NCBI GenBank assembly: GCA_963575745.1
Contig: CAUYUJ010012614.1
Span: 389,390-453,389 of the forward strand
From: Prorocentrum cordatum
Taxonomy: Eukaryota; Sar; Dinophyceae; Prorocentrales; Prorocentraceae
Reading direction: 5' to 3'
DNA: 64,000 bases
Position numbers and translations under genes: made by a program. The notes under the pieces were generated by a model. The model was not told the DNA's origin, searched no databases, and saw only the letters and a list, made by a program, of their open reading frames with translations. Numbering within the stretch: position 1 is the first letter of the stretch; every line of letters begins with the position of its first letter. This document shows, piece after piece, positions 14,828 to 61,984 of the stretch.

Positions 14828-14888
<61 letters not shown>

Positions 14889-15124: not shown

Positions 15125-15189
<65 letters not shown>

Positions 15190-15278
15190 GGTGTGTGGGG
15201 GGGGGTCGGGTGGGGGGGTGGGTGGGGTGGGGTGGGTGGGGTGGTGTGGGGTGGGGTGGGGTTGTGTGTGTGTGTGTG

Positions 15279-15326
<48 letters not shown>

Positions 15327-19015: not shown

Positions 19016-19308
19016 GTCTTTCTCGTTGTTTACGTGTCATGTTGGCTTATCTGGCTCAAAGCGTGGTTTTCTTGTTCATTTAGGCTGATTGTTGCCTTTG
19101 TGTTTAAGGGTCGTCGCGAGTGTTGAATCCTTTCGCCATTATCCGCTCCCTCTGTTGCAGTCGCGACCCTTCTCCCAAATGGGCGGCGCCCTCCTGTCGA
19201 TTATGATGTCGAGGCCCACCTGTTGGCCCGCCCAGCTGTCCAGACGCCCCGCTGGGAGCAAAAAGCTGTTTATAGTTCGGTTGCCACTGAGTTGTGTCTT
19301 CGCAGGCA

Positions 19309-22460: not shown

Positions 22461-22484
22461 GACGTGCCGAGTCCCCAGAGGGTC

Positions 22485-34500: not shown

Positions 34501-34686
34501 ATCATCGTCAACACCATCGTCATCATTATCATCATTGCCGCCACCACCGCCATCATCATCAGCATCAGCATCATCGCCAACAGCATCGTCATCATTATCG
34601 CCATCGCCACAACCATCACCACCATCATTCACCTTCCCCTCGGCGTCCCTGCAGAAGACCATCCGGGCCCGCCCTGGAGCCGCCAT
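31593..34686 (-). CDS. Three-exon gene of an uncharacterised dinoflagellate family (HPDFPDD motif)
   Basis: Exon 1 is 34686-34633 and encodes MAAPGRARMVFCRDAEGK. It joins in frame to exon 2 (34266 to about 33390), which starts VMVDYRGKIMMTPAAV and has SVESKLAELRRRVQLMLKVK, four repeats like AQLGKGNDNT, and a tail LAEKWKQAAGSINATSKPNS. Exon 3 (about 32510-31593) has EATETVVKRKAEHHEDVKGW, PAEKVEELVKRSSFANGRAR, YHPDFPDDLTMVEYKRHLS and ESLFDQTTTGMATLG, and after one frameshift near 31745 ends RAKRAVDHIATADDMLRIKK then RKLPSEPEPPKETGRKR before a TGA at 31595-31593. The basic KKRK tail could be a nuclear signal. One extra frameshift lies in exon 2 near 33712. Function unknown; from memory, HPDFPDD-type proteins are abundant and unannotated in dinoflagellates. 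Confidence 0.6.
32622..33390. repeat. Satellite-like array carrying the TTACG motif
   Basis: CTTACGCTATCTTACGGTAT followed by CTAAYGRTAGCGCGTRCA recurs at about 32868, 33215 and 33364 (short form at 32622). The intervals are filled with ACATACATATGTAT-type AT-rich words. The same composite unit forms the array at 38997-39850. This array lies in the region expected to be the intron between exons 2 and 3 of the minus-strand gene. Confidence 0.7.
34267..34632 (-). other. Inferred GT-AG intron with GAT microsatellite
   Basis: On the minus strand AAG|GTGAATGATGG ... CTTCTAG|GTGATGG joins EGK to VMVDYRGK without shifting frame. Much of the intron (34490-34620) is a GAT/GGT trinucleotide array. The Asp-rich frame reading through it is intronic. 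The duplicated copy has the same intron at 36753-37118. Confidence 0.75.
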
Positions 34687-34919
34687 GGCCAACTTCTTTG
34701 AAGAAGGAGGTTGCTGGGCTTGACAACCTCTCGAGCACAAAGGCTGAAATGCACGTGCTATCATCAGATAGTACCCCGCAATTTCGGATACGAGTGAGGG
34801 GGCGTTTAGGTGGGTCGCGGGGCGGGTCGAAGGGGCGGGTCGAAGGTCGCGGGGCCGGTCGGCGATAAGCCACTCACCCAGGGATGGTGTATAGACCGTT
34901 CGGGCACCCTCACTCTGAT

Positions 34920-35400
34920 CTTCAGCTTGAGATTCAGAACTCACGGTAACTCACAGTAGCTTACGGCCATTCTGAAAGTCAGAACCCACGGCTAACGGCC
35001 TCCAGTGTTCCACAAGTCAGAACATCTAGGGCAATTCACGGTAAATCACCGCCTCTTTTGCTCAAGCACCTGCAATCCATGGCAGTCGAGCGTGGGAAAT
35101 CTGCAACTCACGGTAACTCACGGTAACTCACGGCCTCATTTGCCCCTCATTGGGAGCACCATACGTCGACATGCAACGTTCGAGCGCGGAAGACCTGCAA
35201 TGCATGGCAATCCAGCGTGGGAAGCCTGCAACTCACGGTAACTTACGGTAACTTACGGCGAGAGCCTTGGAAGGATCCAACTGGAAAATTGCAAATCACC
35301 CTTTCTCACATGCGTTCATGCCTGGGGTAGACGCAACTTACGGCAACTTACGCTAACTTACGGCACCTAGGGTGTTTGACCAAATTGCGGTGGCGTTTAA
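34920..35400. repeat. Clustered AACTCACGG/AACTTACGG repeats (copy 1)
   Basis: AACTCACGGTAACTCACGG and AACTTACGGTAACTTACGG recur in at least five short clusters (34940, 35035, 35105, 35230, 35335), separated by 50-90 bases of partly repeated sequence (TGCAATCCATGGCAGTCGAG / TGCAATGCATGGCAATCCAG). They are variants of the 10-bp motif in this window. The same block is repeated in copy 2 at about 37420-37860. Confidence 0.75.
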
Positions 35401-35439
35401 TCTGCACCAACTTTAGAATTGCCAAACACTGTATTACAC

Positions 35440-35580
35440 TACATTATGCTAGCTTACGCTATCTTACGCTATCTTACGCCTGATTACGCTATCTTACGCT
35501 ATCTTACGCTATCTTACGCCGGGGGCGGGCCCTCCTCACGCCATCTGACGCTAACTTACGCTATCTTACGCCGGGGAGGG
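35440..35580. repeat. (TTACGCTATC)n tandem array
   Basis: Six or more tandem units of TTACGCTATC, with TTACGCCTGA and TTACGCCGGGG variants. The duplicate is at about 37925-38062. This is the purest stretch of the 10-bp motif in the window. On the minus strand it reads GTAAGATAGC repeated. Confidence 0.85.
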
Positions 35581-35855
35581 GGGGGGTACACCGCTTTTAC
35601 TCCTCTCCCCCATCATCGCCGTTCTCCTCCGGTTGCGTTTCTCGCCCTCCCAGGCCCGCGAGCGGCCGGGAGAAGGGCAGCGGGAGACCCGGGGGCCCGG
35701 GCATCGATGTTCAGGGACACGGAAGGCGCAGGCATTTTGCCAGGCCCGATCTCTCTTCGTAGTTTTCGGCTGGGCGCAGCTCGAAAAAACTTGGCCAAGG
35801 CGACCCTTGGGGGAGCTGTCCCAGCTGGATAGGCGGTGTGGAGCGCCACCGGGGA

Positions 35856-38342
35856 CTATCTTACGGTATTTGATGCTAGAGTGTGTTGTGGAATTGGGTT
35901 TGGACGTGGCATTGATCGAACCAGCTGCCTGCTTCCATTTCTCCGCCAGCAACGGAGGGCACTCCTTGGACTCCGTCTTGCGCTTCATGCGCGCGTACAA
36001 CATGGCCCGATGGGCTTTGTCGAGGCCGTCGTGGGCGCTCACGATTGCTTTCTGCAGGTCGGCGCTGCACACGGTGCCATCGGGCTGCCTCGGAACTACA
36101 AGCTTGAAGGTACCCGCACCCACAGCTTCGGCATCACCAGCACGCGGCTCACTGCTGTTGTCAGGCTGCGGCGTGCGGTCTTGGGAAGGGCTGGTCCCCG
36201 GGCTCGGCGACTGCAAATCCGACAAGTGAACGCCTTTACCCCTGCCCGGGCGACGGTCGATCTTCGCGCTGTCCTTGCCCTCGTTGCCGTTGCCCTTGCC
36301 GAGCTGGGCGCCCTTGCCAGGCGCGGTGCCGTCGTTGCCATTGCCGAGCTGGGGGCCCTTGGCGAGCGCGGTGTTGTCGTTGCCCTTGCCGAGCTGGGCG
36401 CCCTTCCCAGGCGTGGTGTTGTCGTTGCCCTTGCCGAGCTGGGCCTGGCCGCTGCTGGAGGTCGCCGTGTCCGAGGCGGCCGCGCAGGCGGCGGCGCCTG
36501 CGGCCGTGGCGGCGCTGCCCGCGGCGGCCTGCTCCGTCTTGCAGCCCTCCTCCTTCTTCACCTTCAGCATGAGCTGCACGCGCCGCCTCAGCTCAGCCAG
36601 CTTACTCTCGACGCTGTCCTGACTCATGTCCCTGCCGCCCTGAGGTCCACCCTGTGGCTGCGCAGCCTGATCAGGCGGAGCACGCCAGGCTCTGGTTTCA
36701 CTGCAACTGCAGCTGGGGTCATCATGATCTTGCCGCGGTAGTCCACCATCACCTAGAAGCTCATCGTCATCATCATCACCGCCATCATACAGTCGAGGCG
36801 TTGACCTAAGGAACCCTAAATAAGGAACGAGGCCCCTTCTTCCCAATAAGTTCAACCTCGATTTCCCATGGGAAACCGGAGGACAACCCGAGGCAAACTT
36901 TGACACAATCAAGGAACACCGAACCACTCCCCAACGAAAAGGGTTCCTTCTTCAGCGCCCCGACTGTAATCATCATCAGCATCACCATCATCGTCAACAC
37001 CATCGTCATCATTATCATCATTGCCGCCACCACCGCCATCATCATCAGCATCAGCATCATCGCCAACAGCATCGTCATTATTATCGCCATCGCCACAACC
37101 ATCACCGCCATCATTCACCTTCCCCTCGGCGTCCCTGCAGAAGACCATCTGGGCCCGCCCTGGAGCCGCCATGGCCAACTTTTTTGAAGAAGGAGGTTGC
37201 TGGGCTTGACAACCTCTCGAGCACAAAGGCTGAAATGCACGTGCTATCATCAGATAGTACCCCGCAATTTCGGATACGAGTGAGGGGGCGTTTAGGTGGG
37301 TCGCGGGGCGGGTCGAAGGGGCGGGTCGAAGGTCGCGGGGCCGGTCGGCGATAAGCCACTCACCCAGGGATGGTGTATAGACCGTTCGGGCACCCTCACT
37401 CTGATCTTCAGCTTGAGATTCAGAACTCACGGTAACTCACAGTAACTTACGGCCATTCTGCAAGTCAGAACCCACGGCTAACGGCCTCCAGTGTTCCACA
37501 AGTCAGAACATATAGGGCAATTCACGGTAAATCACCGCCTCTTTTGCTCAAGCACCTGCAATCCATGGCAGTCGAGCGTGGGAAATCTGCAACTCACGGT
37601 AACTCACGGTAACTCACGGCCTCATTTGCCCCTCATTGGGAGCACCATACGTCGACATGCAACGTTCGAGCGCGGAAGACCTGCAATGCATGGCAATCCA
37701 GCGTGGGAAGCCTGCAACTCACGGTAACTTACGGTAACTTACGGCGAGAGCCTTGGAAGGATCCAACTGGAAAATTGCAAATCACCCTTTCTCACATGCG
37801 TTCATGCCTGGGGTAGACGCAACTTACGGCAACTTACGCTAACTTACGGCACCTAGGGTGTTTGACCAAATTGCGGTGGCGTTTAATCTGCACCAAATTT
37901 AGAATTGCCAAACACTGTATTACACTACATTATGCTAGCTTACGCTATCTTACGCCTGATTACGCTATCTTACGCTATCTTACGCTATCTTACGCCGGGG
38001 GCGGGCCCTCCTCACGCCATCTGACGCTAACTTACGCTAACTTACGCTATCTTACGCCGGGGAGGGGGGTGGGTACACCGCTTTTACTCCTCTCCCCCAT
38101 CATCGCCGTTCTCCTCCGGTTGCGTTTCTCGCCCTCCCAGGCCCGCGAGCGGCCGGGAGAAGGGCAGCGGGAGACCCGGGGGCCCGGGCATCGATGTTCA
38201 GGGACACGGAAGGCGCAGGCATTTTGCCAGGCCCGATCTCTCCTCGTAGTTTTCGGCTGGGCGCAGCTCGAAAAAACTTGGCCAAGGCGACCCTTGGGGG
38301 AGCTGTCCCAGCTGGACAGGCGGTGTGGAGCGCCACCGGGGA
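35856..38342. repeat. Tandem segmental duplication, copy 2 (2487 bp)
   Basis: Nearly identical to copy 1, with roughly a dozen substitutions seen by eye and a few indels. Copy 2 has one more C in the GGTCCCCGGG run (about 36197) and one fewer A in GAGCACGCC (about 36680); copy 1 differs at both. Each copy therefore has a frameshift where the other is in frame. The breakpoint lies in a CTATCTTACGG motif, which suggests recombination between motif copies. Confidence 0.9.
35876..37172 (-). pseudogene. Duplicate of exons 1 and 2 of the HPDFPDD-family gene
   Basis: Exon 1 copy at 37172-37119 (MAAPGRARMVFCR-type; the donor is preserved) and exon 2 copy at 36752-35876. Exon 2 is in frame at its 3' part (SPSPGTSPSQDRTPQPDNSS then GAGTFKLVVPRQPDGTVC), where copy 1 is shifted, but is shifted at its 5' part. 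There is no second copy of exon 3, so a transcript from this copy would have to splice past copy 1 to reach it. The long frame that reads through the intron is not the natural product. Confidence 0.6.
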
Positions 38343-38392
38343 GCAAGCCTTTAAATTCTAGCGCGCCCTCGAGCGGCCAGCGAACTGCATCC

Positions 38393-38571
38393 TAGAAACA
38401 ACATAACATTGAACGTTCGGATGTTGTTTGCGCGGGTTTCATGCGTCGGCAGTGCCCGCCCCTAGCACATGGCACGCTTCGCGCGTCATGCGAGCTCGGG
38501 GCGGCCCAGCGCCGAACGCAGGGCAACCCGCGCGGACAACATCCGATCATTCATGTTTATGTGGTTTCTTT
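38393..38571. mobile_element. Inverted-repeat (MITE/introner-like) element, copy 3
   Basis: The left arm AGAAACAACATAACATTGAA then CGTTCGGATGTTGTTTGCGC, and the right arm GCGCGGACAACATCCGATCA then TTCATGTTTATGTGGTTTCT, are reverse complements over about 42 bases with five or six mismatches. The element is 179 bp. The ACATAAACAT block ties it to copies 1 and 2. Confidence 0.6.
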
Positions 38572-38996
38572 CTGAAAAAACTGCGCGCAGCACAGGAGTC
38601 TCTCGACAATGCCGATTGCCTGGAGGCGGAAGGTGGGAGGAGGACATTATCTGCTCTACTATCTCCCTCCTCGCTCCATCCCTCTTCATTCTACCTCTCA
38701 TCCTGGTCGGGGATTGGCAACTCACGGTAACTCACGGTATCTTACGACCGCGTAGGCGGAGAGGGGGAAGGTGAGGATGATGAAAAGATGAGGGGGAAGG
38801 TGAATGAGAGAGGAGGGTGCGCAGTTTAACGACATTTGTTGACATTGAATATTCACATATATATATGCATGTGTATATATACACATCTAGACATTTTTAT
38901 TCAAATGCACATTCACACATGAATGCATGTATCTATATACACAGGTGTATAGATTTGCGTATGTATATACATACGTATACAGTACAGAAATACAAC
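38572..38996. other. Unassigned interval
   Basis: Contains a short ACTCACGGTATCTTACG motif cluster (38718-38750), a purine-rich tract and AT-rich ACATATATATGC-type words. No gene was recognised. Confidence 0.35.
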
Positions 38997-39850
38997 CTTA
39001 CGATATGTTACGACATCTAACGTAAGCGCGTGCAGTGTCTCAGACATGTAACTGCTATTTTTGTATATGTATACATGGATACATCTATAGGTGCGTCGGT
39101 GTATGTGTATGTAAGTTACATGCAGCCAATATTACGCGATCTTCCAGTACATAAGGGTAGCGCGTGCAGTTGTTCAGAAAGGTCAAGTGTGTACACACGT
39201 CTACGCATACATAATTACATACATACATGTGCGCATGTGTTTATAATGTAATGTATGGATTACACACCTTACGTTATCTTACGGTATCTAATGGTAGCGC
39301 GTGCAGTTTCCCAGCAAGATTTTGCACATACACCCATAGATATGTACATACGTGCATGGAACTACTCATATGTTACATACACAGATACACACGCATCCAT
39401 ATGCGGATGTTCATGTAAGTTACAGGCAGCTCATCTTACGCTATCTTACGGTATCTAATGGTAGCGCGTGCAGTTTCTCATAAAGATGGTGCACATACAC
39501 ACGCATTTATGTACATACATATATATGTAACTCTGAATTTGTATACATAAATATGCATACACATATGCACATACATTGATGCGTACATGTACATGCACAT
39601 GTAAGTTACATCATACTTATCTTACGTTATCTTACGGTATCTAATGGCAGCGCATGCTATTTTCACAAACGAATATTGTACACATGCGTGTGTTTGCATG
39701 TATGTATGTATGTGCAACACATTGCTTGTATATGCATATCGATATATAAAGTTCACACATATGTATCTATGCGTTGGCGTGTGTATGCGCATGTACATAT
39801 ACAACAAGCGTATCTTACGCTATCTTACGGTATCTAATGCTGGAGTGTGC
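38997..39850. repeat. Satellite-like array, unit 133-191 bp, with TTACG core
   Basis: Cores at about 38997, 39130, 39268, 39435, 39620 and 39811. The typical core is CTTACGCTATCTTACGGTAT followed by CTAATGGTAGCGCGTGCAGT. Between cores lie ACATACATGTATATGC-type AT-rich words. Spacings are 133, 138, 167, 185 and 191. The plus-strand translation repeatedly gives LRYLTVSNGSACS, which is an artefact of the repeat. Confidence 0.8.
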
Positions 39851-39910
39851 GTTGGAGTTGGGGTTGAGCGGACCATCCTCCATCATTGTCATGGATTGAC
39901 AACTTGCGGC
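39833..39910 (-). CDS. Candidate first exon of a paralogue of the minus-strand gene
   Basis: The minus strand reads MTMMEDGPLNPNSNAHSS just before ATTAGATACCGTAAGATAGC. The last residues and the following motif match the end of exon 2 of the 31593-34686 gene (SKPNSTTHPS then the same motif). Either the two exons are homologous or the repeat itself includes about 25 bases of coding-like flank. The rest of such a paralogue is not visible; element C lies immediately upstream on this strand. Confidence 0.3.
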
Positions 39911-40250: not shown

Positions 40251-40256
40251 TCACAA

Positions 40257-43200
40257 TTGGCCAAACCTCTCCCCAAGCTGCGGGACCGGGCCATGGCCCT
40301 ACACCTTGCAAGCATGTCTCCCACCAAAACCGCCTTTGCCTGGAACACCTACCTCATCGCGCTCATCCCGTACCCATCCCACTACTCCCTCCCTGACACC
40401 GTGCAAGAAAGGGCACTTCGAGCCCACTTGCGGGTCGCCCTCGGTCTCGCCTCCGCCTCCTGGATCCCAGACAACATTCTCACCGGCCTGGGCATCCGCT
40501 TCCAAGTCCCTGGCTGCCCCAAATGCCCGCTTGCCACCTCACGGGCGATTGCGGCCAGGGCGCACGCCCTAGATGACCTGTGGGGGCCCCTGCAGGCGAG
40601 GCACAAGGCAGGGAGAAGGTGGAACAAACTTGTGAAATGGGCACGGGAATTCACCCCTCGGGACGAGCCACGCAGGCCCGGCTCCAAGGTTCTGACCGAC
40701 GCCAGGGCCGCCGACCTCTTCAATCGTGCCATGAGAGAGCCCCCTCGTCGCCGGGCTCGTTACGTCGGGCGCGTTGTATACGTCGCGGCATGGACGCAGC
40801 TCCACGGGCACGTTGTGAGCACTTGGTGCTCCACAGCCAGCCACGAGCGTAGGTGGGCTCGAACAGACGGTGCGGAATGGTCCCTCCTTGGGCACTGTGC
40901 CTCCCTCACCGAGGCGCATCACGTCCTACGAGTCCTGGCCAATGGACTACCCGGGTCCGCGCGTAGACGAAGTGTTGCTGACAGGATCCCCCACCAATGC
41001 GGCTGCGACAGGGTGGCCAAAAGAGTCTGGCTCACCGCCATGCAACGGGATCGCGGACAGGCTTGGTGCGACTCGTGCCTCGGGCCCTGGACTGGAGAGG
41101 CCTCCCTCTGGCCCCTCCTTGGCGATGACGCGTTGCCCGAGGACTTGCGTCCATTTGCTGCAGAGAGGAGAAGGCAACTCGGCAACATCAGCGTTCCTAT
41201 CTGGCAAGGACTCTACGGAGCCTGCCCTCTCTGCGGCCTGGGGGAAGCCACTACCGAGCACGTGTGGGGCTGGTGCCCCGCCGCTGCCCTTGCCTGGGAG
41301 AAGGCTAGAGGCCCTGACCACCCCAGAGACCTTCCCACCGCGATATGCTCCAGAGGTCAACACCAGAGGCTTGCCTGCCGCCTTTTACACCAGATCTCCT
41401 TCAGATATTGCGTGAACCTGGACTGCGCCCCCATCGGTGCCGACGAAGCTGCCAGGCTCATCGTCCAGGGAATCGCCGTACCAGTTACCGACCTCCAGGA
41501 AGACAATGATGAGGACGACGACATACAAGAAGGGCAGGCCCCTGCTACACCGGCGGACGACACCGCCGTCTGGGCCCCCATGCTGGACCCCTGTCAACAT
41601 TGCAATCCCCAAGGGCCACACCTGCTGCGCATTCAGGGGGCTGCCGGACCGCATCTCGGCAGGCAAGCTCCGCGCGCCCGGGGGGGAATCCGGCGCCTCC
41701 CTGTCACGATCAGGGCCGCGCGGAGCGGGGATCGGCTTGCCGTTCTCCAAACGGGCGACACCAGGGCGAGCTGGATGCCGCCAGGGGTGGGCTGGTTCCC
41801 CTGCCCCAGGACAGACAGGTCCCCCAGTGCCCTCTGGACCAAGACCTACTGCAGACTCTGCGACCTGCATACCCTGGTGCTCAGAGCTAGCAGGGACATG
41901 GAGGCGGGCGAGGAGATCACCGTCGGAGACTCGCCGCTCCCCGCTGCCGACACGGCCCAACGGCCCCTTGAGCTCACCTTCGACGGTGGGGCTCGCCGGA
42001 TCGGGGAAGGTGATAAGGTCTCCGGGGCGGCAGCTGTCCTCTGGAGACACGACCCGCACCGCGGCTACCCGCGCGTCGTCGCGGTCGCCGTCGTTGCCCT
42101 TCCAGGCTGCGACAACGCGCAGACGGCGGACGCTTCCGGGTGCAGAGCGGGCCTTGCCCTGCTCCCCCACCTTGACACCACGCTTCGAGGGGCCCGGGTG
42201 GTCGGCGACAATCTCGCTGCCATCCGGTACGGAGCCGGCACTGGGCGCTATCGCCGGCTCCACCTGGCACAACAGATGGGTCTCGCTCTCCGACAAGCCA
42301 GCGGAGCCGGATGGACCCTCACATGGCAGGCTGTGCGTCGTCGCCTCAATAAAGCAGCCGACCGTCTTGCAACACTAGGGTTTTTTTTCTGGGCCGACGC
42401 TCTTCGACGCGCTGGCGACCTGACAGTCACCTCCTGGATCGTCTGGGACGGCTCCCAGCCGCCCCCCCCCCTCTTCCCTGCCGCGGACGTCGACCTCTGC
42501 GACTTGGACCAGGTTGCGCTGTTCGTTGATGCTCTCGAAAATCTCCCTCCCCCCTCCCCCTCTGATCGCCCCCCGCCGCGGCGCGCTGAGGTCCTGACGG
42601 GTCGCAGCTTCAGCTGCCGCTACAAGACAGCGCAGCCTTCCGCTGCCACCCTGGATCGGTTCCCACCTTGGATAATGCCAAAAAACAACCAGGGCCCCAT
42701 CCGTCGATGGCCCTCTTGCCTACCGTACAGTGGCGACGGGCCGCCAGAGCGCATGGGCACGCGCGTCTTCCTGGCCCGCTTTTGTCATTGGATGCGTTGG
42801 GTCTATTTCCGCGGCGGTTGGCGGCACTGGTGCGAGATCTGCCGGGAGCCCGCCGACGACACAGAGCACATCCTAAGCGAGAAGCACTACGACATGTCGG
42901 TGGCACGATGCCAGGGCGGGTGGCCACACCCGAACACCTTCGTCACTCCTGGGAATCTTTGGTGCAATTGTGGAGGGGAACCCTATGATGCGTTCCACCA
43001 GGTGTCTGTCGTGCGGAAGCCTTGGCACGGCTGGAGGCCCGTCCAGCCCTCGGTTACCCGTGACGGGGTACGCTCGCCCCCTGGCATCTCGATCCCAGAG
43101 GGCGCGCTACACGTGCCCATTACCTACCCCCTCTGGGACGATCCGCCGACGTACAACTGCCCCGGAGGCACCAGGGTGGACCCGGAGAGGGTTCGGACGC

Positions 43201-43637
43201 GCATGATGGACAGGCGGGGCGCCGCAAGAGAAGGCCTCAGGCTGTCCGAGGACGGCGACGGGAACAGGATGCGTGCGAAATCGACCATCGGGCTACACCC
43301 CTCACCTGGACTGGCTACAGGCACCTCGGGGGTGCCTCCCCCTCCACCCCCGCCGCCTTGCCCTCCTCCTGCCTGGGGCCCACCCTGTCAGCCGCGAACA
43401 GTTCTGTTGGCCGAAGACAGCGCGACGGAGGTTGACGCTCTCTCCCCGACAAGCCCAGCTGCCCTGGATGAGTCGCTGGCCATGCAGGCAGCCTCGGAGG
43501 TCGCCAGCCTCTACTCGGTTCCGCTGGGCTCCCCGCACTCTAGGGTCCATCCCAAGGCAGCGCTCGGGGAGCTGATCGGTGCCGTTCGACTCCCCCCACA
43601 AGTGCCTTACTCTGTCCAGGACCGAGGACAAACGTGA
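40257..43637 (+). CDS. RT connection domain, zinc finger, RNase H and linker (1126 codons)
   Basis: The frame is open from the 5' truncation; the ATG at 40257 lacks any claim to be the natural start. Residues 1-310 are the connection region shared with element B. CPLCGLGEATTEHVWGWC (about residues 320-337) is the C-x2-C-x6-H-x4-C finger typical of LINE C-termini. Residues 440-560 hold further CxxC pairs (CQHC, CRLC). RNase H follows at about 570-720: LTFDGGARR (first Asp), DASGCRAGLALL where the usual Glu is not obvious, VVGDNLAAIRYGAG (Asp) and RRRLNKAADRLA (Asn and Asp). It resembles the plant-type RVT_3 RNase H. A third Cys/His cluster is HWCEICREPADDTEHILSEK. A Pro-rich linker leads to a TGA at 43635-43637, beyond which the same frame continues into helicase. 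Confidence 0.75.
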   Translation: MAKPLPKLRDRAMALHLASMSPTKTAFAWNTYLIALIPYPSHYSLPDTVQERALRAHLRVALGLASASWIPDNILTGLGIRFQVPGCPKCPLATSRAIAARAHALDDLWGPLQARHKAGRRWNKLVKWAREFTPRDEPRRPGSKVLTDARAADLFNRAMREPPRRRARYVGRVVYVAAWTQLHGHVVSTWCSTASHERRWARTDGAEWSLLGHCASLTEAHHVLRVLANGLPGSARRRSVADRIPHQCGCDRVAKRVWLTAMQRDRGQAWCDSCLGPWTGEASLWPLLGDDALPEDLRPFAAERRRQLGNISVPIWQGLYGACPLCGLGEATTEHVWGWCPAAALAWEKARGPDHPRDLPTAICSRGQHQRLACRLLHQISFRYCVNLDCAPIGADEAARLIVQGIAVPVTDLQEDNDEDDDIQEGQAPATPADDTAVWAPMLDPCQHCNPQGPHLLRIQGAAGPHLGRQAPRARGGIRRLPVTIRAARSGDRLAVLQTGDTRASWMPPGVGWFPCPRTDRSPSALWTKTYCRLCDLHTLVLRASRDMEAGEEITVGDSPLPAADTAQRPLELTFDGGARRIGEGDKVSGAAAVLWRHDPHRGYPRVVAVAVVALPGCDNAQTADASGCRAGLALLPHLDTTLRGARVVGDNLAAIRYGAGTGRYRRLHLAQQMGLALRQASGAGWTLTWQAVRRRLNKAADRLATLGFFFWADALRRAGDLTVTSWIVWDGSQPPPPLFPAADVDLCDLDQVALFVDALENLPPPSPSDRPPPRRAEVLTGRSFSCRYKTAQPSAATLDRFPPWIMPKNNQGPIRRWPSCLPYSGDGPPERMGTRVFLARFCHWMRWVYFRGGWRHWCEICREPADDTEHILSEKHYDMSVARCQGGWPHPNTFVTPGNLWCNCGGEPYDAFHQVSVVRKPWHGWRPVQPSVTRDGVRSPPGISIPEGALHVPITYPLWDDPPTYNCPGGTRVDPERVRTRMMDRRGAAREGLRLSEDGDGNRMRAKSTIGLHPSPGLATGTSGVPPPPPPPPCPPPAWGPPCQPRTVLLAEDSATEVDALSPTSPAALDESLAMQAASEVASLYSVPLGSPHSRVHPKAALGELIGAVRLPPQVPYSVQDRGQT

Positions 43638-46332
43638 AGGAGGATCGCCTGGGTTGAAAGCCAGGCCTCGGTCGAGACGGTAGACGATGGTAGAGGCCCC
43701 CCACGAGAGGATCTCGCCAGGAGAGGTAACTGCGCACTCGGAGTTCGCGTCTCCAGGATCGATGCCAACACGAGCATGGAGGGCCTGGATGCCTTTCGGT
43801 TGCGGAACGCTATGAACCTACCCGACGGTGAAGAATGTCTGTTGTTGGAGTGGCCCTCAATGCACAAGGTTGCATCCAGACCCTTGGAACGTGACAAAGA
43901 GAGCAGGTGGCTGTATATTTCAGTCACGGGCCCCACAGTAGACAAGATCGCAGACGTCTCAGTCTGGTGGCCTCCCGCTCTGGGAGGTCACATCCACCCC
44001 GAGGACGCTCAAACGCTAGGTCTCAGCCCTTCCGCCAGGTACCCCTCAAACTGGTGCATCGCGGTCTGCAACAGCGGGAAGGGTGGTCAGTTCCACGAAG
44101 ACGAGACCAAGGCGAAACGCCCCCCTAGCGATGATCTTCCCTGGTACCGTGTGGACGAAGCCCCTTCTGCCATCCAGTTCTGGCGGCAATGCTCGGCGCT
44201 CGACCAGATCTACTACCTGCGCCAGAACCCAGCGGATCTGTTTGGCCACCAGCTGTCCCCTGTGACGTACCTCTTGGCCTTTGTACACGCCCCTCGGTCG
44301 GAACGAACTTTGGCCAACGACCTGGGGCGCACTCGTTCCCTGGGGCTGAGCCTTAGGGCCAGGGCGGCCGCCACCCTGGACCAGAGCGTTCCCGACGCCG
44401 ACCGCATGCAGGCTGTCAGAGACGGCATGCTACAGCAGGTGCTGCCTCTCCCCCAAGGCCTGAAGGCGTTCTCTGACGAGGAAATCTCAGATGCGACAGG
44501 CTCTGTCTTTCAGCGAGTGCGTCCCACTCCCGGCCTGGACACCCTCCGCAGAAGTTTGGACAAGCACAGGCCGAACAGCGATGCGACCAGTGCCCTGCAG
44601 GCCACCTTGAGCCACCGTGCCGTTCTAGTGCACGGGCCCCCTGGAACGGGCAAGACCACCTTCTCAGTAGCCTGCCTGGACATGTGGGGCCCCTGCCTAC
44701 GCCCTGGACGCGCGGCCGCTTTGGCAGCAGGGTCCAACGCAGCGGTCGACCAACCAGCTCTGGCAATGATCGAAGCACAACGTCAGCGGCGCCTCGATCA
44801 AGGCACGGGTTTCCCCGACAAGTTCGTGCGCTTGGCAAAGAAGGACCGTGTCAACGAGGCACTTGTCGACCTCGCGCCTGAAGGTCACTACAGAAGCGCC
44901 CGCGGAGATTTCCCGTTCCAGGACGGGGGCAAGAGCCAGGACTTCAGGCCCTACAAGGCGAGCTTACTACGGGAGGCCAGGGTAATCATGTCTACGCGCG
45001 AGGCGTCAGAGGCACTCGGTCAAAAGGACAGCCCCCAAATCGTCCTCCTGGTTATCGACGAGGCTGGACAAGCCACAGAGCTCCACGCGCTCATGTCCAT
45101 GGTAAACCTGATCAACAGTGGTGGGACCGTGGTCCTCGTCGGAGACCCGAACCAGCTGCCCCCCACGGTGCTCTCCAAGCTGGCGAACGACCTAGGGCTC
45201 TGCGTCAGCATCTTCGACAGGATGTTTCACGCACTCCGCGGCCAGGAATCGTCCGTAGTTCACCTTTCAATCTGCTATCGGATGCATCCGCAGCTACTCG
45301 CCTTCCCGAACGCAGCCTATTACGGGAAAGGCATGAAGTCTGGCATCCTGGATCCGCTCAGAGAGCGGCCAATCGTTGAGGGCATCCCCTGGAGAGACAT
45401 TCGCGCTTGGGAACCCGGGCGACTGGCAGCGCTGGCGAGACTCACCGAGTCTGACGAAGGTGACCTCCGCGCCACCCTTGAACCGCTAGACCCGCCGCCA
45501 AGCGCAGACAAGCACCGTTTCCTAATGGTTCACACACCCTCCTGGGAGGTCGCCTCAGAACTACAACCAGGCTTTGCCAATCTTCCGGAGGCGGCTCAGG
45601 CCGTGGACATCGCGCGCTCTTCTGCCGGAGCTCAACAAGGGCACCTCTGTCAGGATTGTGGTCGGCTACCAGCTCCAGACGGCTATTCTCATGGACGGGT
45701 GGCCGCAGGGTCCTCGTCACCTCTCCGGCGTCCTGCGTAACACTAGAGGAGGCGCGAAAGGGCAGCCCGGCAAGGGGAAAGACGGTCCTGGACGCGGTGG
45801 ACAGGACGCACCTGGCCCTGGACAACCCCCTCAAGGCCACAGGGTGGACACTCAGCGCTGGCAACGCGTGTTCCGAGAGGACCATGATGCCCACGCTGCC
45901 ATCAGCTCCTCTTTCCCTGGGCTACGGCAGATTGCGGGCGAGCACCTGAAGAGCGGGGCGCTCAAGCTCACCACAATCGACTCCAGCCAGGGAGGCGAGG
46001 CGGACATCGTAATCGTGTTATTTACCCGGAGCAACGGGAACTACAACTTGGGTTTCGTCGATGACGCCAAGCGCCTGAACGTGGCAATCACCAGGGCTAA
46101 GCGGGACATCCTGATCTTGGGAGACGGTCGCACGTTTGCCGACGCCGCCTGGTCTCAGCCTCGCGTACTCTCAGAGTACGGGCGATTGGCTCGCCTTTGG
46201 GCCCGGTTTCGAGGCCGCGCCCTTGTGGGCCACAGGCTTTCCCTGGGCATCGACGAGAGCTTCGACCCACTCCAGGACCTTGCCGCATGGATACCCTCGC
46301 CCGTCGCCTGGGGCAGTGACGCAAAGGAGTAG
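43638..46332 (+). pseudogene. UPF1-like superfamily 1 helicase, one frameshift
   Basis: The frame of the preceding ORF continues after the TGA (RRIAWVESQASVETVDDG) and reaches MEGLDAFRLRNAMNLPDGEE at 43776. An N-terminal domain (WWPPALGGHIHPED, IQFWRQCSALDQIYYLRQNP) precedes the helicase core. Motif I is VHGPPGTGKTTFS (about 44629-44667), motif II VIDEAGQATE (45053-45082), motif III VGDPNQLPPTV (45139-45171) and motif IV SICYRMHPQLLAFPNA (45269-45316). After a frameshift near 45590, motif V is TIDSSQGGEADIVIV (45972-46016) and motif VI LNVAITRAKRDILILGD (46077-46127). All catalytic residues are kept. UPF1-group enzymes unwind RNA or DNA 5' to 3' using ATP. A role in copying or protecting element RNA is inference. 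A TAG ends the frame at 46330-46332. Confidence 0.8.
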
Positions 46333-47595
46333 AGCGGGCAGAGCGAGCTGGACGTTGCCAAGAAGAAAGCGCGTGACGCCCAGGCCACCGATTTCGCCGA
46401 GCGTTATAACGCACCCCTGGACGAGCGCTTCGACTGGGAGACCCTGGGTAAGCTAATCTCGGGATGGCTCCACGATGTCCTCTCGACGCCTGCCTTTCAT
46501 GTGCTCATATTCCTTATGTCCGGGCTGCGCCCCCACGAATTCACGCTGGCCAATGCACCGCGGCAGCCGGGCATGCTCGACCGCAAGGCTTGGTCGCACC
46601 TGGGCTTCTTGTTTGACATGTCTGTAGGGCTCGATGCGACCAATCTAGTCTACAACGCGCTGTGGGCAGCAATGGTTTGGTCGCTCGGCCTGGGCGCCCC
46701 CTGGGGGGGCGCGAGCTACGCCGTCCCCGACGACTCCCTTCCTCCGTTGCCTCATGCCAATGGCAGGCGTGTAACACTCTGGAAGCGCCGCCAGTGCACC
46801 CCCAAAGGGCTCTTCCGTCAGGTCCCCAAGGCTTGGAGCTCCGCTACCAAGGACTGCTGCAGACACAGGAGGCACCCTGGAATGGCCGGTTTGGGAGAGA
46901 TCCTCCGAGGATGCGGTTCCTCGATGGAAGAGTTCCGCCAGGGAATCATAGACACCGACGGCCTCCCCATGGATTCCTGCAAGGCCCGTTCGCTTCTGGT
47001 TGTCATGATGCTCATGCTCCGCGAACCGCGAGTGTTTCTGTGGCCTTTCTCTCATGCAGAGCAGGCCGGGGACGTCATCGAAGCCATTCTGGGGTTCTGC
47101 GTCCCCTGGCAAGAGGTCCACCAGGATTTCCGAAGCCAGTTCGCCCGTCCCTGGAGCCTCACACTGGACGACCTGGCGGACCTGCACGGCCGCATCGAGG
47201 CGGTTCTACCCCACATCTCCAAGCTCGTGGCATTGGCGCATCACCGCCCGGCTGCGCAGGAAGCCGGCTGCCCGCAGACCTGGAGCGAGATGGACAGGCA
47301 AGACTTCCAGCTAGAAGCACCGATGCTCGTCCTCGAACGGATCGTCCCGGCAGCAACTCGGACCTCCCTGGATACACGCGGCTGCTCAGTGTGTGCGCTA
47401 CACGTCGCGCTGGCGGGGACCGACGCCTCCCTCGGTCCTGACGACCGGGTTGCGGGTCTTTCCTACATTGGCGGCGGACTTGCCCTGTCCCAGACCGACC
47501 TCAATGCTCCTCCACCACCGGCCCCGGCCCCAGGCACCAGACTGGGCCCTCCATTTCATCCCCGACGAGAGGCTCGTGCTCGAGAAGAAGAATAA
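46333..47595 (+). pseudogene. Element C downstream domain, unrecognised
   Basis: The helicase frame continues after the single TAG (SELDVAKKKARDAQATDFAE, then WETLGKLISGWLHDVLSTPA) and runs to 47595 with balanced, partly hydrophobic protein: HVLIFLMSGLRPHEFTLANA, NLVYNALWAAMVWSLGLG, SLLVVMMLMLREPRVFLWPF and ISKLVALAHHRPAAQEAG. No catalytic motif was recognised. Given one stop in 5.9 kb, this must be part of the same polyprotein as the helicase. Confidence 0.5.
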
Positions 47596-48016
47596 CAGAT
47601 ACACGTGCGACAGGTGCGGAAAGGACCAGCTGACTGCCGCCGAGGGTACCTGGATCTCCGACAGCACGCGCCAGATGGTCGCTCAGAGTAGGCCTCAGGC
47701 CTACATCAACGGTGCCAACATGGGTTGGCACTGCGACGTCTGCAGGATACGCCACCTGGAGGACAATGGCCTCCCTACGCCTGCAGGAGCGAAGCTCGCC
47801 GACAGAGTCAAGGAGCATGCGCAGCAGAGGTCGGGGACCAGCAACGACAGAGCGAGCGCCCTCCCTTCCCTGGGGCACCTTCCGCTTGGCTACGGCTGTA
47901 GCCCCCTGGCGGACACGAGGACGTTAGCGGACCTCTTCATGGTGCCGACGGGCATGAAGAGACGAGCGCTTCGGCATCAAAGCCGCGCAGACGCAGACCT
48001 AGTCTGCGCGGTGTGA
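47540..48016 (+). pseudogene. Element C zinc-ribbon-like segment
   Basis: After a frameshift near 47570-47590 (AG-rich GAGAAGAAGAAT) the coding frame reads DWALHFIPDERLVLEKKNNR, YTCDRCGKDQLTAAEGTW and MGWHCDVCRIRHLEDN. Two CxxC pairs about 45 residues apart (CDRC, CDVC) suggest one zinc-binding module. The frame stops at 48016 and coding resumes in another frame. Confidence 0.5.
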
Positions 48017-48039
48017 CACCTGCCCCCAAGGGGCCCCGC

Positions 48040-50049
48040 TTCTCGTTTGGGACCCCGGCTCTCCGCCTCTGGGTTGCTTCATTTGGAAGTTTGCGGAAGG
48101 TATAGGCGTTCCCGAGCAAGATGGGCTGCCCCCCATCGACAAGCGTGCCCTGGCCTGGTGGGGACGCCAATGGAACGCTACATGGTGCTGCCGTCGCTGC
48201 CTGGTTCCGATTTGGAACATAGGCCCGGCCACCCTGGATCACATCCTGGATCGCGACTTCAGATCGTTGTATCCAGAAAAACCTCCTGCCCTTCCCCCGC
48301 TTAGCAGCCAGATAGGGTTCGAGGCGCCTGTGGACAGTGTGGATTCTCTTCCTTGGCTAGTCGTGGACGCCAAGGCCCAGGACCAATTCACCAAGGTCGG
48401 AGCAAACAGTCCCCCTGGACCCAGCGCCACAGGCAGCTCTGGTGCAGCGTCAGAGCCAACCCCCAGGACTCTCGCCCAGCTTTTGGAGCTCCTGCCAGAT
48501 CTTCCACCACCACAGGGCCCGCTCCTGAGCGACAGAGACGTCAACAATCCCATCCTAAGCGCTGAGGATCCCAGCAGGCCTGGCACTGGCGGACTGTCCG
48601 CACGGCGATCGCTGGTATCCTTCCTCCGCGACTTCCATCCTGGACTGGAATACACCTGGAGGCAGTTTTGTATCGCCAACCGCGACAGAAGGGCCCCGGG
48701 GCCCAGCTTCGACGAGACCTCCCTGCCCGACGATTTCCTGTCTGAGTTCCTTAGGACCATTTATGGTGACTACATCCCCGACGACTGTCCCCTTCCCAAC
48801 CGGCGCTTGGAAGGTAAGCGCGTGGCCGCGGCGCGAGTCATAGCGCACCTGGCCAACGGCGAGAGACATAAGGAGCCCTGGAAGGTTTATGCGGAAACGC
48901 GGGCCCCGGCAAATGGCCTCGATCCCATCCGACATGAGATCGGCACGCTGACGGGCTTCCTGCTCAGCCTCGGTGACGATGCCCTCGCCTCGGCGTCCAT
49001 CACCTCCTTGACAGAGTCTCCACCAACAGGCGTGTTGACCATGAGCGACGACAGGCCAGACACTCCCATAGCTGCCGGCACAGACAGGTCCCAGGGCACG
49101 GTGGACAACGACTCGCGTATGGGCCACCATGACCCGCCCGACTACGGCAACGGCGAAAGCGCGGAAGACGGGATCCCCCTTACCAAGATGGAGCCCGACT
49201 TCGGAGAAGACGAACCCGCTCGTCCCCCCACGTGCTCGGAGTCGGCCCAGGACGACGATGATAATCGCTCAGGCGACGAGGCGCCACAGCGAAGCCCATC
49301 GGCGGACAGCTCTGACTCCAGCCGCGAGGATGCCGCGACCTCAGCTGGAGAGGAAGCGCCCTACGCCGACCGCAGAAGCGATCCAGCCCGAGACCCCGCG
49401 AGGGACGAGAGAGCCAGCGACCGAGGTGGCTCGCGGTGCGAGCGCTCTCCCGCGCCCACCCCGCAGCTCCCTGGACAGGGGCCCTATCACCTCGCCATAC
49501 TGGTACATCGGAGCAGGACGCACGGGAGGCGGCCCCATGTACAAAGTCTGGCTTGGCACAGTCGAAATCGAGCGTCCCGACGAGACACCAGCCAGACGCA
49601 TATCCAGGCTTCAGTCGGAGCTGGGCGCAGTCTTCTGCGCGCTGTGGACAGCAAACACGCAGCGCACTCTGCTCCCTGGATGCAGGGCGCCCGAATCCGA
49701 CCCGAAACTATACACGCCCACGGACATCAACAATTTCCTAGAGGCCTGGAAGGACTGTGGGTATGACGCCTACGAGATGAACACGAGGCTGGGCTATGGC
49801 ATCGACTGGGATAGGTTACGAGCCAACTACTTGCGTCACTTCCATACAGACGACAGGAGCAAAGGCGGCTATCGCCACGCGGGCCGGCGTGACCGTGCGA
49901 CAAGTTCCTGGGGCACCTGGGGCAGTTGGCAGGGCGAGTGGCGCGATGGATGGCGTGAAGATCGCTGGCAGACGGGTGGCAAACGCGGCGGAGGTTGCTC
50001 TGGTGATCGGGGCGATAGAGATGGAAAGAGGCTCCGTTGGAGAGACTGA
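48040..50049 (+). pseudogene. Element C C-terminal region with acidic linker and GR/W-rich tail
   Basis: From about 48115 one frame reads LAWWGRQWNATWCCRRCLVP and IWNIGPATLDHILDRDFRSL, then RSLVSFLRDFHPGLEYTWRQ and LSEFLRTIYGDYIPDDCPL, followed by an acidic Ser/Asp/Glu-rich disordered stretch (about 49030-49400). A frameshift near 49500 leads to YWYIGAGRTGGGPMYKVWLG, RISRLQSELGAVFCALWTAN and DINNFLEAWKDCGYDAYEMN. The end is a Trp/Gly/Arg-rich tail (GTWGSWQGEWRDGWREDRWQ, then KRLRWRD) and a TGA at 50047-50049. The basic tail may bind nucleic acid. No catalytic domain was recognised. Confidence 0.5.
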
Positions 50050-51544
50050 GCTCCATCTCCGCTCTCTCCCCGCCCCCAGTGCCTTGCGCCACCACCTACA
50101 CCTTGCGACACGCTGCCGCGGCCCTCCGCCGCTCTCTCCTTCAACCGTGGGGCAGCACCACCGCCCCTCCCCTGGGCGGCACTCCTCCTACCTTTGGGCC
50201 CTGGTGTGCCGTTCAGTAATGCCATCTGCACTCTGCGTGACACCGCGCATCCTGCAGACCAATTTGCCACTGGCATCGCTGCCTTTCTCTTCCGGTGGCC
50301 GCCGCACTCTCGCCGCAAGGCTCCCTCGTTCCTCGCCGTCGGTTTCACTTCCTGAATTCTCTCTGGCGCTGCCTTAGGCCGCGCCGTGGGCCCCTTAATT
50401 GCGGCGCTCTGCCGCCCTCCGCCCGATGCGCGCACCTCCTGCCTTTGGATTCAGGTGCGCGCTTTGGCAATACCGTCCACAGCCCCTCCGCTGTTGGACT
50501 CGCGGCCTCTGGCCTTGCTGTAGATCTCGCCGCCAGGCGTTCCTGGCCCGTGTCAGTGGACCGCGGCTCGCCTGTCCACTGACCCACTCCCTGGATATTT
50601 TTACCAACTGAACGGCCTTCCGCCGTGACCCTGGGTCGTATCGGTTTCGAGGGGCGCGTCTTTGGTTTAAGACGGTCCCGTTCTCGGTTGCTATCTGACT
50701 CGTTTTGGGTAGCTCTGAGACTCGGTTGTGCACTCGTCACGTGGTCTTTCGTTCATCGTGCACACCACGGCCCTTCCTCTTGCTGGTTGGGCTGCCGCAT
50801 CTCAGTGTGGAGGGTTCACTGCCCACATTTCCCATCTTCTGGATGCGTATTCTGACGCCGCGACCTGTTTCGCCGTCAGTCTCTTCCGCTGGACTTGGTC
50901 TCCAGTCCGTCTGTGTTACTCCAGACATTGGATCGACGTCCTCGGGATCGTTCCTACCTGTTCGTACTTGAACAGCTGGGAACGCTTCGCGCCATTTTGG
51001 CTGCGCTCGGTTTCCTCGGTGTCTGCCTTCAGACTCCCTGGATGTACCTTTGCACGTCCTTTCAGGGGCTGTTCTGCAGACTCCCTTGATTGCATGCTGG
51101 ACTTCCTCGGTGCTCGTTTGACTCCCTCGATGCCCCTTTTGCACGCCCGTTCAGGGGCTGCTCCGCAGTCTCCCTGGGCTGCACGTAGGCTCTGACGCCC
51201 TAGGACGCTGCTGCTTGCCGCTTGACCGCGGCCTCGCGCACGCCCGCCGCTAGTCGCGGCCGCAGCCCGCCCGCGACCGCCCGCCGCTGGCGCTTCCGCC
51301 TGCGGCTGTTAAAAAAGTACCCCCCACCAACCCATCCACAAACGATCAGCAGGGGAGTTGGTGAATCAGATGCGGCAGAACGCATGCAGTCGCGCAGCCG
51401 TCTTCGCGAACACAAGCATCACGCATAGCTTCCCGCATTTAAGTTTAATATGGCAATCGGTGCAAATTACGATGGTGTTTCGATGAGAGGTGAGGGGTAT
51501 TCCGATGACTCGTAATGGCTGTTGCACTGATTTGTATCTTAAGC
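50050..51544. other. Non-coding interval, possibly the 3' UTR of element C
   Basis: Pyrimidine-rich plus strand without a convincing coding frame. It contains an imperfect direct repeat of about 95 bases (about 51008-51088 and 51100-51180, sharing TTTCAGGGGCTGYTCYGCAG-like and ACTCCCTSGATG words). A TTAAAAAAGTACCCCCCACC segment at 51309 could mark an element end. No polyadenylation motif is asserted, since dinoflagellates lack a standard AATAAA. Confidence 0.35.
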
Positions 51545-53846: not shown

Positions 53847-55015
53847 TTTACGAGAAGTATACTACTGCTAATTTTAAGTATAACAAGAAGAATGCGAACG
53901 CTACGAGAAGAACAAGACTAAGACACATAATAATAATAACCGCACTAGGAATACGATTACTAATACTAAGAGCACGAAGAATACTACTAATCATAAGAAT
54001 AAGAAGAACACTACGAAGAAACTGCGACGAAACATAACAATAATAATACGGCTACTAATACGTCTTCTAATAATTAGAAGAAGAAGCCGAAGACGAATTG
54101 TATTACCAAGGAGAATCAACATACGAATGCGAATAATAATACTACTCATAATACGAATAAGAAGAACGCGACGAATACTAATACTATTACTAATAATAAT
54201 ATGAAGGCGAACGCCAAGAATACGAAGACGAATCCTAACACTAATAAAACTAACACTAACCATAAAATTATTACTACAAATAATAAGAATACGATTAATA
54301 CGAAGGAGACACACACTAACAAACATACTAATACTTAGAATACTCATAATACGACGGCTAATAATACTACGAAGAATACGAAGAAAACTACGCCTAAGTA
54401 TACGACGAATAATAATACTACGAATAAGTAGAATAGTACTACGACGGAAGCAAAGAAAACAACTGCGAATACGACTATTAATATTCATAAGCAGAATACG
54501 ATGAGTAATACGATTAATACGAAGAATCATAATACTAACCGTAATAATAATACGAAGGAGGAAAAGAATACGAATACTACTAGTAATAATAAGCATACTA
54601 ATACTACCACTGATGCCCATATTACTACTAGTACTAATAATGCCTATACTAGTACTGCTAATAATAAGAAGAATAGGACAAACATGACGAACACTAAGAA
54701 TAATACTAATATTAATAAGAGGACGGATAATAATAATAATAATACCAAGCAGAGTGCGAATAATAATGCTACTAATAATAAGAAGATGGATTCAATACTA
54801 ATAATGCTACTAATAATAATAATGCTACTAATAATAATGCTAATAATAATAATAATAATGCTAATAATAATAATAATAATGCTACTAATACTAATAATGC
54901 TACTAATACTAAGCATAATATTAATACGAATAAGAAGACTACGACGCATAATTATAATACTACCAATAATAATACTACGAATGAGAAGACAGCTGATAAT
55001 ACTCATGCAACGACG
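53847..55015. repeat. Decayed AAT/ACT/AAG trinucleotide array
   Basis: About 1.17 kb made of AAT, ACT, ACG and AAG words in phase, with purer AAT runs at 54735-54745 and 54800-54890. Composition is strikingly AT-rich against the GC-rich surroundings. The Asn/Thr/Ile-rich open frames on both strands are products of the repeat. Confidence 0.85.
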
Positions 55016-56015
55016 CAGCGGAGGAGGAACAATAATATGAGGATGCGGATGATGAGGGGGCGGACGAGGCGGAGGGGGGGGCGGGGGGAGGGGGGGAGGA
55101 GGAGGGGGAGGAAGAGGAGGAGGAGGGGGGGGGGATGGGGGGGGGGCGGAGGGGGGGAGGGGGGAGAGGAGGAGGGGGATGAGGAGGAGACGAGGAGGAG
55201 GATGAGGAGGGGGCGGGGGGAGAGGAGTAGGGGGATGGGGGGAGGGGGGGGGGGGGGGGAGGGATGGGGGATGAGGAGGCGGATGCGGAGGCGGAAGCGG
55301 AGGCGGGGCGGGGGCAGATGAGGAGGGGGGGGGTGGTGGGGGTGGGGGGGGGGGGGGGGGGGGGGGGGGGGAGGGGTAAGGGGCCGGGCGGCGGAGGAGG
55401 AAGCGGGGGGGGAGGGGGGGGGGGGGGGGGGGGGGGAGGAGGACATGGGGGGGGGGGGGGGGGGGGGGGGGGGTGTGGCGGCGGGGAGGAGGAGGCGGAG
55501 GAGGAGGTGGGGGGGGTGGGGGGATGAGGAGGGGATGATGATGAGGAGGAGGAGGAGAGGAGGAGGAGGAGGAGGGGGGAGGAGGAGGAGGAGGAGGAGG
55601 AGGAGGAGGAGGAGGAGGAGGAGGAGGAGGGGCGGGCGTGGCGGAGGAGGAGGCGGAGGAGGCGGGGGGGAGGAGGATGGGGGTTAGAGGAGAAGGAGGG
55701 GCTGGGGCGGAGGCGGAGGGGGGTGGGGGGGGGGGGGGGGGGGGGAAGGAGGGGGCGGCGGGTGCGATGAGGAGGATGGGGGGGGGGGGGGGGGGGGGGG
55801 GGGGGGATGCGGCGGACGAGGCGGAGGGGGCGGAGGAGGCGGAGGAGGCGGAGGAGAGGGGGAGGCGGAGGAGGCGGAGAGGCGGGGGAGGAGGAGGAGG
55901 GGGGGGGGGGAGGAGGAGGATGAGGAGAAAGAGGGGGAGGGGAGGAGGATGAGGATGAGGAGGAGGAGGAGGGAGAGGAAGAGGAGGCGGAGGAGGGGGA
56001 GGAGGAGGAGGAGTA
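55016..56015. repeat. GGA/G-run microsatellite
   Basis: Around 1 kb with almost no pyrimidines on the plus strand: G-runs of 10-30 (for example 55346-55372, 55448-55473, 55781-55806) and pure GGA (55555-55630). It abuts the AAT-type array directly, giving a 2.1-kb compound microsatellite. Potential for triplex and G-quadruplex DNA is high. Assembly across it may be unreliable. Confidence 0.9.
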
Positions 56016-59676: not shown

Positions 59677-59772
59677 ATGTGACCAGTCGTCGAGTTCATC
59701 ATGATTGACCGATGGTATGGTGGCCGACCAACAAAGCCAGCGATCGCGCTCCTCCTGACCAGATGTGCCAAA

Positions 59773-61978: not shown

Positions 61979-61984
61979 CTGTAA

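Follow-up and report, generated by a model that had tools for sequence, protein, structure and literature searches.

A 64,000-nucleotide (nt) stretch of the Prorocentrum cordatum genome, referred to here as the window, contains a decayed copy (copy A) of a long interspersed nuclear element (LINE), or non-long-terminal-repeat (non-LTR) retrotransposon, that encodes its own helicase. In members of this lineage, the 5′ region encodes a RING finger, and ORF2 combines an APE-type endonuclease, a reverse transcriptase (RT), and an RNase H. A separate third open reading frame (ORF), ORF3, of ~2500 amino acids (aa), encodes a complete superfamily 1 (SF1) helicase of the UPF1/SEN1 type. That the window element is a dead copy of a helicase-bearing LINE is close to certain. 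The best overall explanation, to which we assign a probability of roughly 0.7, is a LINE lineage of ~25 kb whose ORF3 helicase functions in replication of the element, with the window holding one of its dead copies.

The central evidence comes from other copies in the window's own assembly (4.13 Gb, 21,875 contigs). A 508-aa helicase query has 86 matches on 85 contigs, the window's included, at 78%–100% identity; because these come from scoring the best 85 of 2799 first-look candidates, the helicase copy counts are lower bounds. About 10 kb was read at each of 10 copies, which were picked for their long open frames and include one pair of near-identical duplicates (L039 and L040). The RT connection domain, zinc finger, RNase H, linker, and helicase occur in the same order and on the same strand in 10/10, and the start of RNase H is separated from the start of the helicase piece by 1668–1713 nt (1704 nt in the window). 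An independent DNA search used the RNase H region alone (best 40 of 510 candidates scored). On all 19 contigs common to the two lists, again counting the window's, the helicase lies 2138–2283 nt downstream of RNase H on the same strand, and the helicase or the 3′ region is found at the expected distance for 28 of the 40 RNase H places. The remaining 12 are not evidence of helicase loss, because both lists are partial. The first 320 codons of ORF3 are matched in part by 39 of 40 helicase loci (L009, which is the window itself, to L048, with five places represented twice), the exception being L024. Hence, RNase H and the SF1 helicase adjoin because both are parts of one repeat family. This bears out an earlier, sequence-only reading of the window, which had proposed a LINE carrying a helicase and had asked whether most helicase copies lack a neighboring RT or RNase H, and whether the join is unique to this locus. 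Among the copies examined, the helicase is accompanied by these domains and the join recurs. A host gene cluster was also considered and rejected.

The same reading described RNase H and the helicase as encoded in one frame, running through a single TGA into the helicase motifs. This arrangement is peculiar to the window copy. First, the start site of ORF3 maps in 30 of the 33 distinct non-window copies (all except L024, L036, and L039), and it is an ATG in 28. Second, an in-frame stop lies upstream of the ORF3 start in 22 copies (in a stretch of up to 330 nt, or ~300 nt in the shorter loci). Third, the RNase H frame closes 78–176 nt before the ORF3 start in 10/10 copies where it can be followed; the spacer between the ORFs is rich in indels and C-runs. 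The conserved ATG, the upstream stops, and the closed RNase H frame therefore mark the single frame of the window as secondary. The TGA at 43635 is itself private to the window, with a sense codon at that position in 30/30 mapped copies, and programmed readthrough is rejected on this ground. An ancestral fusion of RNase H to the helicase is likewise rejected, given the separate ATG and closed RNase H frame in other copies.

What does ORF3 encode? In the window, the SF1 helicase spans 43638–45740 and continues in another frame at 45526–46332. Its two parts match the Pfam families AAA_11 and AAA_12, respectively, and its best PDB matches are SEN1 (E = 5.7e-21) and UPF1 (E about 6e-16). The helicase motif set reported earlier is thus present but not in a single frame: motifs I–IV lie in one frame, to ~45.5 kb, and motifs V–VI in another from 45526. 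Of 33 copies, 10 preserve all six motifs exactly, and any single motif is exact in 22–28. Motifs I–VI are also present, in order, in P0121, a 2541-aa protein from a 15.6-kb metagenomic contig (ENA). ORF3 is open over 2502 aa at two places that are mutual duplicates (C13378 and C17285), and its C-terminal half reads without a break over 1412 codons in L049 and is likewise continuous in P0121 and, with a deletion, in L050. A 3.7-kb “coding ghost” had been noted downstream of the helicase. Its coding character holds, and it can now be identified as the C-terminal half of ORF3, because the end of P0121 is homologous to window position 50049 and genomic frames reach 2502 aa. This half contains a conserved domain without an assigned fold, a low-complexity stretch, a basic C-terminus, and, by eye, two Cys-pair (zinc-ribbon-like) regions. 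A zinc-finger-like motif (C-x2-C...H...H) can be seen by eye at the start of ORF3.

Purifying selection acts on the helicase core to a degree similar to RT and RNase H, and more weakly on the first part of ORF3. We calculated omega by the Nei–Gojobori method as medians over pairs of copies; these had been identified through their protein similarity, a choice that may depress omega. The values are 0.114 for the RT connection (27 pairs), 0.148 for the zinc-finger part (9 pairs), 0.093 for RNase H (36 pairs), 0.337 for the ORF3 start (33 pairs), 0.200 for the N-terminal part of the helicase (45 pairs), and 0.129 for the helicase core (45 pairs). Across 30 helicase places (435 pairs), omega is 0.185, with a range of 0.09–0.67, and the median dS for the helicase pieces is 0.29–0.44. 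For the helicase, the measurement covers the N-terminal part and the core, with motifs V–VI and the C-terminal half of ORF3 lying outside it. Preservation of the helicase suggests a need for a motor protein, whether for copying the element or for protecting its RNA.

Several features identify the element as a LINE: an APE-type endonuclease and RT in one ORF, a common 3′ end with an A-run, and variable 5′ truncation. RVT_1 and/or Exo_endo_phos_2 match upstream ORFs in 6/6 copies scanned, with some matches below the Pfam cut-off. For example, the two families match a single ORF in L042 (E = 1.3e-5 and 0.0013, both below the curated cut-off), and matches above the curated cut-off are found for RVT_1 in L043 and for Exo_endo_phos_2 in L039. 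Among PDB entries, R2 alone matched the RT piece (E = 0.78). Farther upstream, a 4-kb 5′ region taken from C3950 matches 34 places, some of them partially, at 82%–96% identity apart from itself (best 34 of 496 candidates). This region encodes the RING finger (zf-RING_2, E = 1.1e-7 in L051 and 1.8e-5 in L052). On 12 of 14 shared contigs, the 5′ region precedes the helicase by 17.7–18.1 kb; on 12 of 13, the helicase precedes the 3′ region by 5.1–7.3 kb; and on five of six, the 5′ and 3′ end queries start 23.2–24.3 kb apart. Adding ~1.6 kb of 3′ end to the distance between the end queries gives a full-length size of ~25 kb, which is unusually long for a LINE. A stretch resembling L053:103–244 recurs just upstream of the 5′ region. 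A motif scan for spliced-leader relics gave one stray match, in L022.

The termini of copy A are those of a 5′-truncated LINE. Its start, 40259, corresponds to a point in the interior of other copies, and three further loci (L041, L045, and L047) start at different interior points. At the other end, the two copies compared, those of the window (A-run at 51311–51316) and L050, finish in the same way, with ...GGCTGT followed by one base and an A-run, and have different flanks. The location proposed earlier, 40253–50049, is therefore right, but its bounds are not, as the copy extends from 40259 to 51316. No LTRs or terminal inverted repeats flank the window copy among the repeats listed, with the 5′ terminus of full copies lying beyond the sequence reached. 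Two other observations concern the ends of copies. Tandem units of ~340 bp occur in the 3′ untranslated region (UTR) of several other copies, at the equivalent of window 50608–50947. In addition, L045 and L047 carry the same 23-nt stretch (21/23 identical) at their 5′ junctions (L045:3769–3796 and L047:2355–2382), despite their different 5′ starts. Is this a common target sequence, or the result of a template switch to a shared RNA?

The ORF2 remnant of copy A lies in an ORF of 1127 aa (40251–43637). Its RT connection and zinc finger are 61% identical over 312 aa to window positions 21534–22469, which belong to a second element in the window (element B), as had been recognized from the sequence. 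The RNase H seen at the same time also stands, with its three signatures at 41979 (FDGGAR), 42207 (DNLAA), and 42345 (NKAADRLA). The Pfam family RVT_3 matches 7/7 aligned copies (E up to 10), with a best value of 3.2e-5 and a value of 0.0033, below the curated cut-off, for the window copy. The alignment shows a D-E-D-D active-site pattern, and the window copy has D where 6/6 aligned copies have E. Matches to canonical RNase H (PF00075) are also abundant in the assembly (best 150 of 2607 candidates), many of them in open frames of >1600 aa.

A number of results weigh against our reading. Support for the RNase H assignment is modest: a Pfam scan of the whole 1127-aa ORF gave no match, nor did the RNase H alignment, used as a profile against the PDB, return anything significant. 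AlphaFold models have low confidence, with pLDDT values of 34.4 for the ORF3 C-terminal domain and 35.3 for the helicase. The spacing of element parts has exceptions, with longer distances at C14100, C1074, and C4669 and an opposite-strand arrangement at C16334, and the 5′ region examined stops short of the 5′ terminus of the element. Lastly, a target-site duplication (TSD) is absent from the window copy and the C7557 copy, where the longest word shared between the flanks is ≤5 nt. TSDs of LINEs can decay or be absent, and both copies are old, so this is weak evidence against a LINE. The features of the window are given in Table 1.

Table 1. Parts of copy A and related features in the window
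Feature	Position	Strand	Basis
Helicase-bearing LINE copy A, 5′-truncated and decayed	40259–51316	+	Homology to 9 other loci begins at 40259; shared 3′ terminus, with the A-run ending at 51316
ORF2 C-terminal RT (connection) and zinc finger	40259–41243	+	77%–92% aa identity to the copies read; 61% to element B; omega 0.11
RNase H-like domain, D-E-D-D pattern	41934–42455	+	RVT_3 in 7/7 members; alignment; omega 0.09
ORF2 end and inter-ORF spacer, many indels, frame not kept	42456–42674	+	9-copy alignment; RNase H frame closes before ATG (10/10 followable copies)
ORF3 start, conserved ATG (MPKNNQG...), ending here at private TGA 43635–43637	42675–43637	+	Start matches P0121
ORF3 helicase N-terminal part and SF1 motifs I–IV	43638–45500	+	AAA_11, E = 1.4e-27; at least 85 genomic places
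ORF3 helicase motifs V–VI, other frame after frameshift at ~45.5 kb, stop at 46330–46332	45526–46332	+	AAA_12, E = 3.1e-18
ORF3 C-terminal half, frameshift-broken here	46333–50049	+	Continuous in L049, L050, and P0121
3′ UTR with conserved 3′ terminus and 6-A run	50050–51316	+	Comparison with other copies
Element B, diverged relative of the same LINE type	562–22469	+	Homology to element parts
Second helicase fragment, diverged subfamily, 42% aa identity	52807–53824	+	Sequence match

How is the ORF3 helicase related to other helicases? Its closest relative is P0121, which is 52% identical over 100% of a 481-aa helicase query; the next-best match is 35% identical over 57% of the query (5.8 billion proteins, best 7981 candidates scored). 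A first protein search with a 700-aa query had missed P0121, and the later query retrieved it. P0121 is a full-length homologue of ORF3, sharing its start as well as its end; a link to RT on its contig is putative. Its C-terminal domain, searched against the same 5.8 billion proteins, returned P0121 alone (best 7988 candidates, limited length). A phage collection gave one record with a weak helicase match, and 198 pattern matches in IMG/VR included no relative. In a quick tree of helicases (56 rows, 384 columns, midpoint root, with the window's broken helicase not among the rows), five LINE copies and P0121 form one clade (SH-aLRT 100, stem 1.99) that falls outside the SEN1/SETX/UPF1, SMUBP2/IGHMBP2, and dinoflagellate HELZ2 rows. 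Because the tree has a single UPF1-labelled row and a midpoint root, it shows that the LINE helicases are separate and not which group is their sister. AAA_11 and AAA_12 score far above Viral_helicase1. SEN1/senataxin and UPF1, the best PDB matches, share the SF1 helicase core with the LINE helicase. The differences are the separate clade and several features of P0121: the SEN1 N-terminal domain (PF12726) and the UPF1 zinc/CH domain are not among its Pfam matches (E 0.01), a glycine/lysine-rich insert lies between motifs IV and V, and an extension of ~1400 aa without an assigned fold follows motif VI. The earlier description of the helicase as “UPF1-like” is therefore apt for the UPF1/SEN1/SMUBP2 superfamily within SF1 but not for UPF1 proper.

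What might the helicase do for the element? For processivity and strand displacement, LINEs are generally taken to depend on their own RT, together with host factors. This element would move by target-primed reverse transcription, in which ORF2 would nick the target and copy the RNA, with RNase H perhaps removing the template. The ORF3 helicase would join the element's own ribonucleoprotein and travel along the RNA, or along the RNA–DNA hybrid at the target, removing structure and bound proteins. As a result, a GC-rich RNA of ~25 kb could be copied; the GC content of the window is 0.63–0.65 between positions 40 and 50 kb. We infer the activity of the helicase, its binding partner, and the step at which it acts, and we consider it an even bet that the helicase serves as a replication motor.

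Other functions can be proposed for ORF3. One is defence: the helicase could unwind double-stranded RNA and so blunt host silencing, as has been proposed for insect LINE helicases. There is a precedent, in that the portion of PMC6338049 covered describes weak silencing suppression by LINE-borne SF1 helicases, and the RING finger of the 5′ region could target host factors. However, the precedent is a virus-type helicase, unlike the one found here, and we regard a counter-silencing role as unlikely. A second proposal is a counter-measure against nonsense-mediated decay (NMD), in which the helicase, by mimicking host UPF1 or taking its place, shields a multi-ORF LINE RNA that its early stops and long downstream sequence would otherwise expose to decay. 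This role and help in reverse transcription had both been put forward in the sequence-only reading, and both are still inferences. The LINE helicase does belong to the superfamily of UPF1, the presence of several ORFs on one presumed RNA would place stops far from the 3′ end, and a related idea has been raised for insect LINE helicases, as stated in the part of PMC5563155 covered. Nevertheless, the LINE helicases form their own clade outside the single UPF1 row, the UPF1 zinc/CH domain is not listed for P0121, and conservation of the motifs fits a working motor better than a decoy, all of which makes this proposal rather improbable. Third, the helicase might be a passenger, captured once and hitch-hiking without a function. 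Broken copies are numerous, and that of the window is certainly one, but a passenger would not be expected to have an omega of 0.13–0.20, near the RT connection and RNase H values, or open frames of 2502 aa (the duplicates C13378 and C17285) and 2541 aa (P0121); we give this explanation very little credence. Finally, the chance landing of a LINE fragment beside a host helicase retrocopy is rejected as having virtually no likelihood, as the order RT connection–RNase H–helicase recurs across the copies examined. Replication of the ~25-kb element with the help of its ORF3 helicase is thus the explanation we favor.

The window contains further sequences of this and other types. Element B comprises an ORF1 region (homology at 1765–5333, RING-like), a middle ORF (6325–7407), an endonuclease (8161–9000), and endonuclease, RT, and zinc-finger sequences at 19296–22469. 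The ~10 kb between 9000 and 19296 is unmatched by the queries used, and the RNase H and helicase queries have no match directly downstream of element B. The second helicase fragment represents a subfamily with 24 other places at 57%–74% identity and the rest at 41%–56% (best 150 of 4090 candidates). It is followed by a trinucleotide-rich tract, and 53900–56000 is a long simple-sequence tract, first an AAT/ACG-type trinucleotide mosaic and then G/A-rich. Minus-strand ORFs at 56592–61984 look by eye like a further LINE, with pieces that resemble an endonuclease and an RNase H (...LADRAA). The other features are a near-perfect tandem duplication at 33370–38342 (period ~2487 bp, 98%–100% identity in the stretches listed), a short motif around CTTACGCTATCTTACGGTATCTAA that recurs at irregular spacing over 32841–39855, and a GT-rich simple-sequence tract at 14750–15300.

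What are the implications of a LINE with its own helicase? First, a LINE with a selected, element-encoded helicase offers a natural experiment on whether target-primed reverse transcription can be freed of its length limit by a motor. Second, given the thousands of first-look candidates, the family probably makes up a sizeable fraction of the genome. Third, the ORF3 helicase could be mistaken for a host gene. Fourth, the genes captured by LINEs, which already included methyltransferases (dinoflagellates) and virus-type helicases (insects), now extend to a cellular-type helicase. At slightly less than even odds, we propose a new lineage of giant LINEs (~25 kb) whose third ORF encodes a cellular-type SF1 helicase that has become fixed in the retrotransposition machinery. 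The lineage would be old enough to have subfamilies and to be present in a related organism, where linkage to RT is putative, and the helicase is perhaps the reason for the large size: a LINE with its own processivity motor.

The sequence-only reading knew of no described LINE clade with a UPF1-like helicase. In a literature search covering titles and abstract openings, with few subscription journals and preprints, the papers listed include none on a LINE with a cellular-type helicase ORF and none on a dinoflagellate LINE with a helicase, and the parts of PMC11453091 and PMC11071213 covered mention no LINE helicase. The statement of the earlier reading needs a qualifier, since virus-type SF1 helicases were described at the C-terminus of insect R1/TRAS LINEs in 2015 (PMC4686597). 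The following comparisons draw on the portions of the cited papers that were covered. The SF1 helicases of insect LINEs are tobamovirus-like C-terminal additions to ORF2 (PMC4686597, PMC5563155, PMC6338049), and they occur in Jockey LINEs as well (PMC6338049). The insect R1/TRAS elements resemble the LINE described here in having an endonuclease, an RT, and, on the 3′ side of the RT module, an SF1 helicase. In contrast to their tobamovirus-like ORF2 domain, the helicase here is of the UPF1/SEN1 type (AAA_11/AAA_12), has its own ORF, and lies downstream of RNase H in an element of ~25 kb. The other close comparison is SymbioLINE-Dnmt, a group of dinoflagellate LINEs with a cytosine methyltransferase in ORF1 (PMC5890265). 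In both cases, a gene for a cellular-type enzyme has been captured in a dinoflagellate host and kept by purifying selection; there it is a methyltransferase in ORF1, whereas here it is a helicase in a third ORF.

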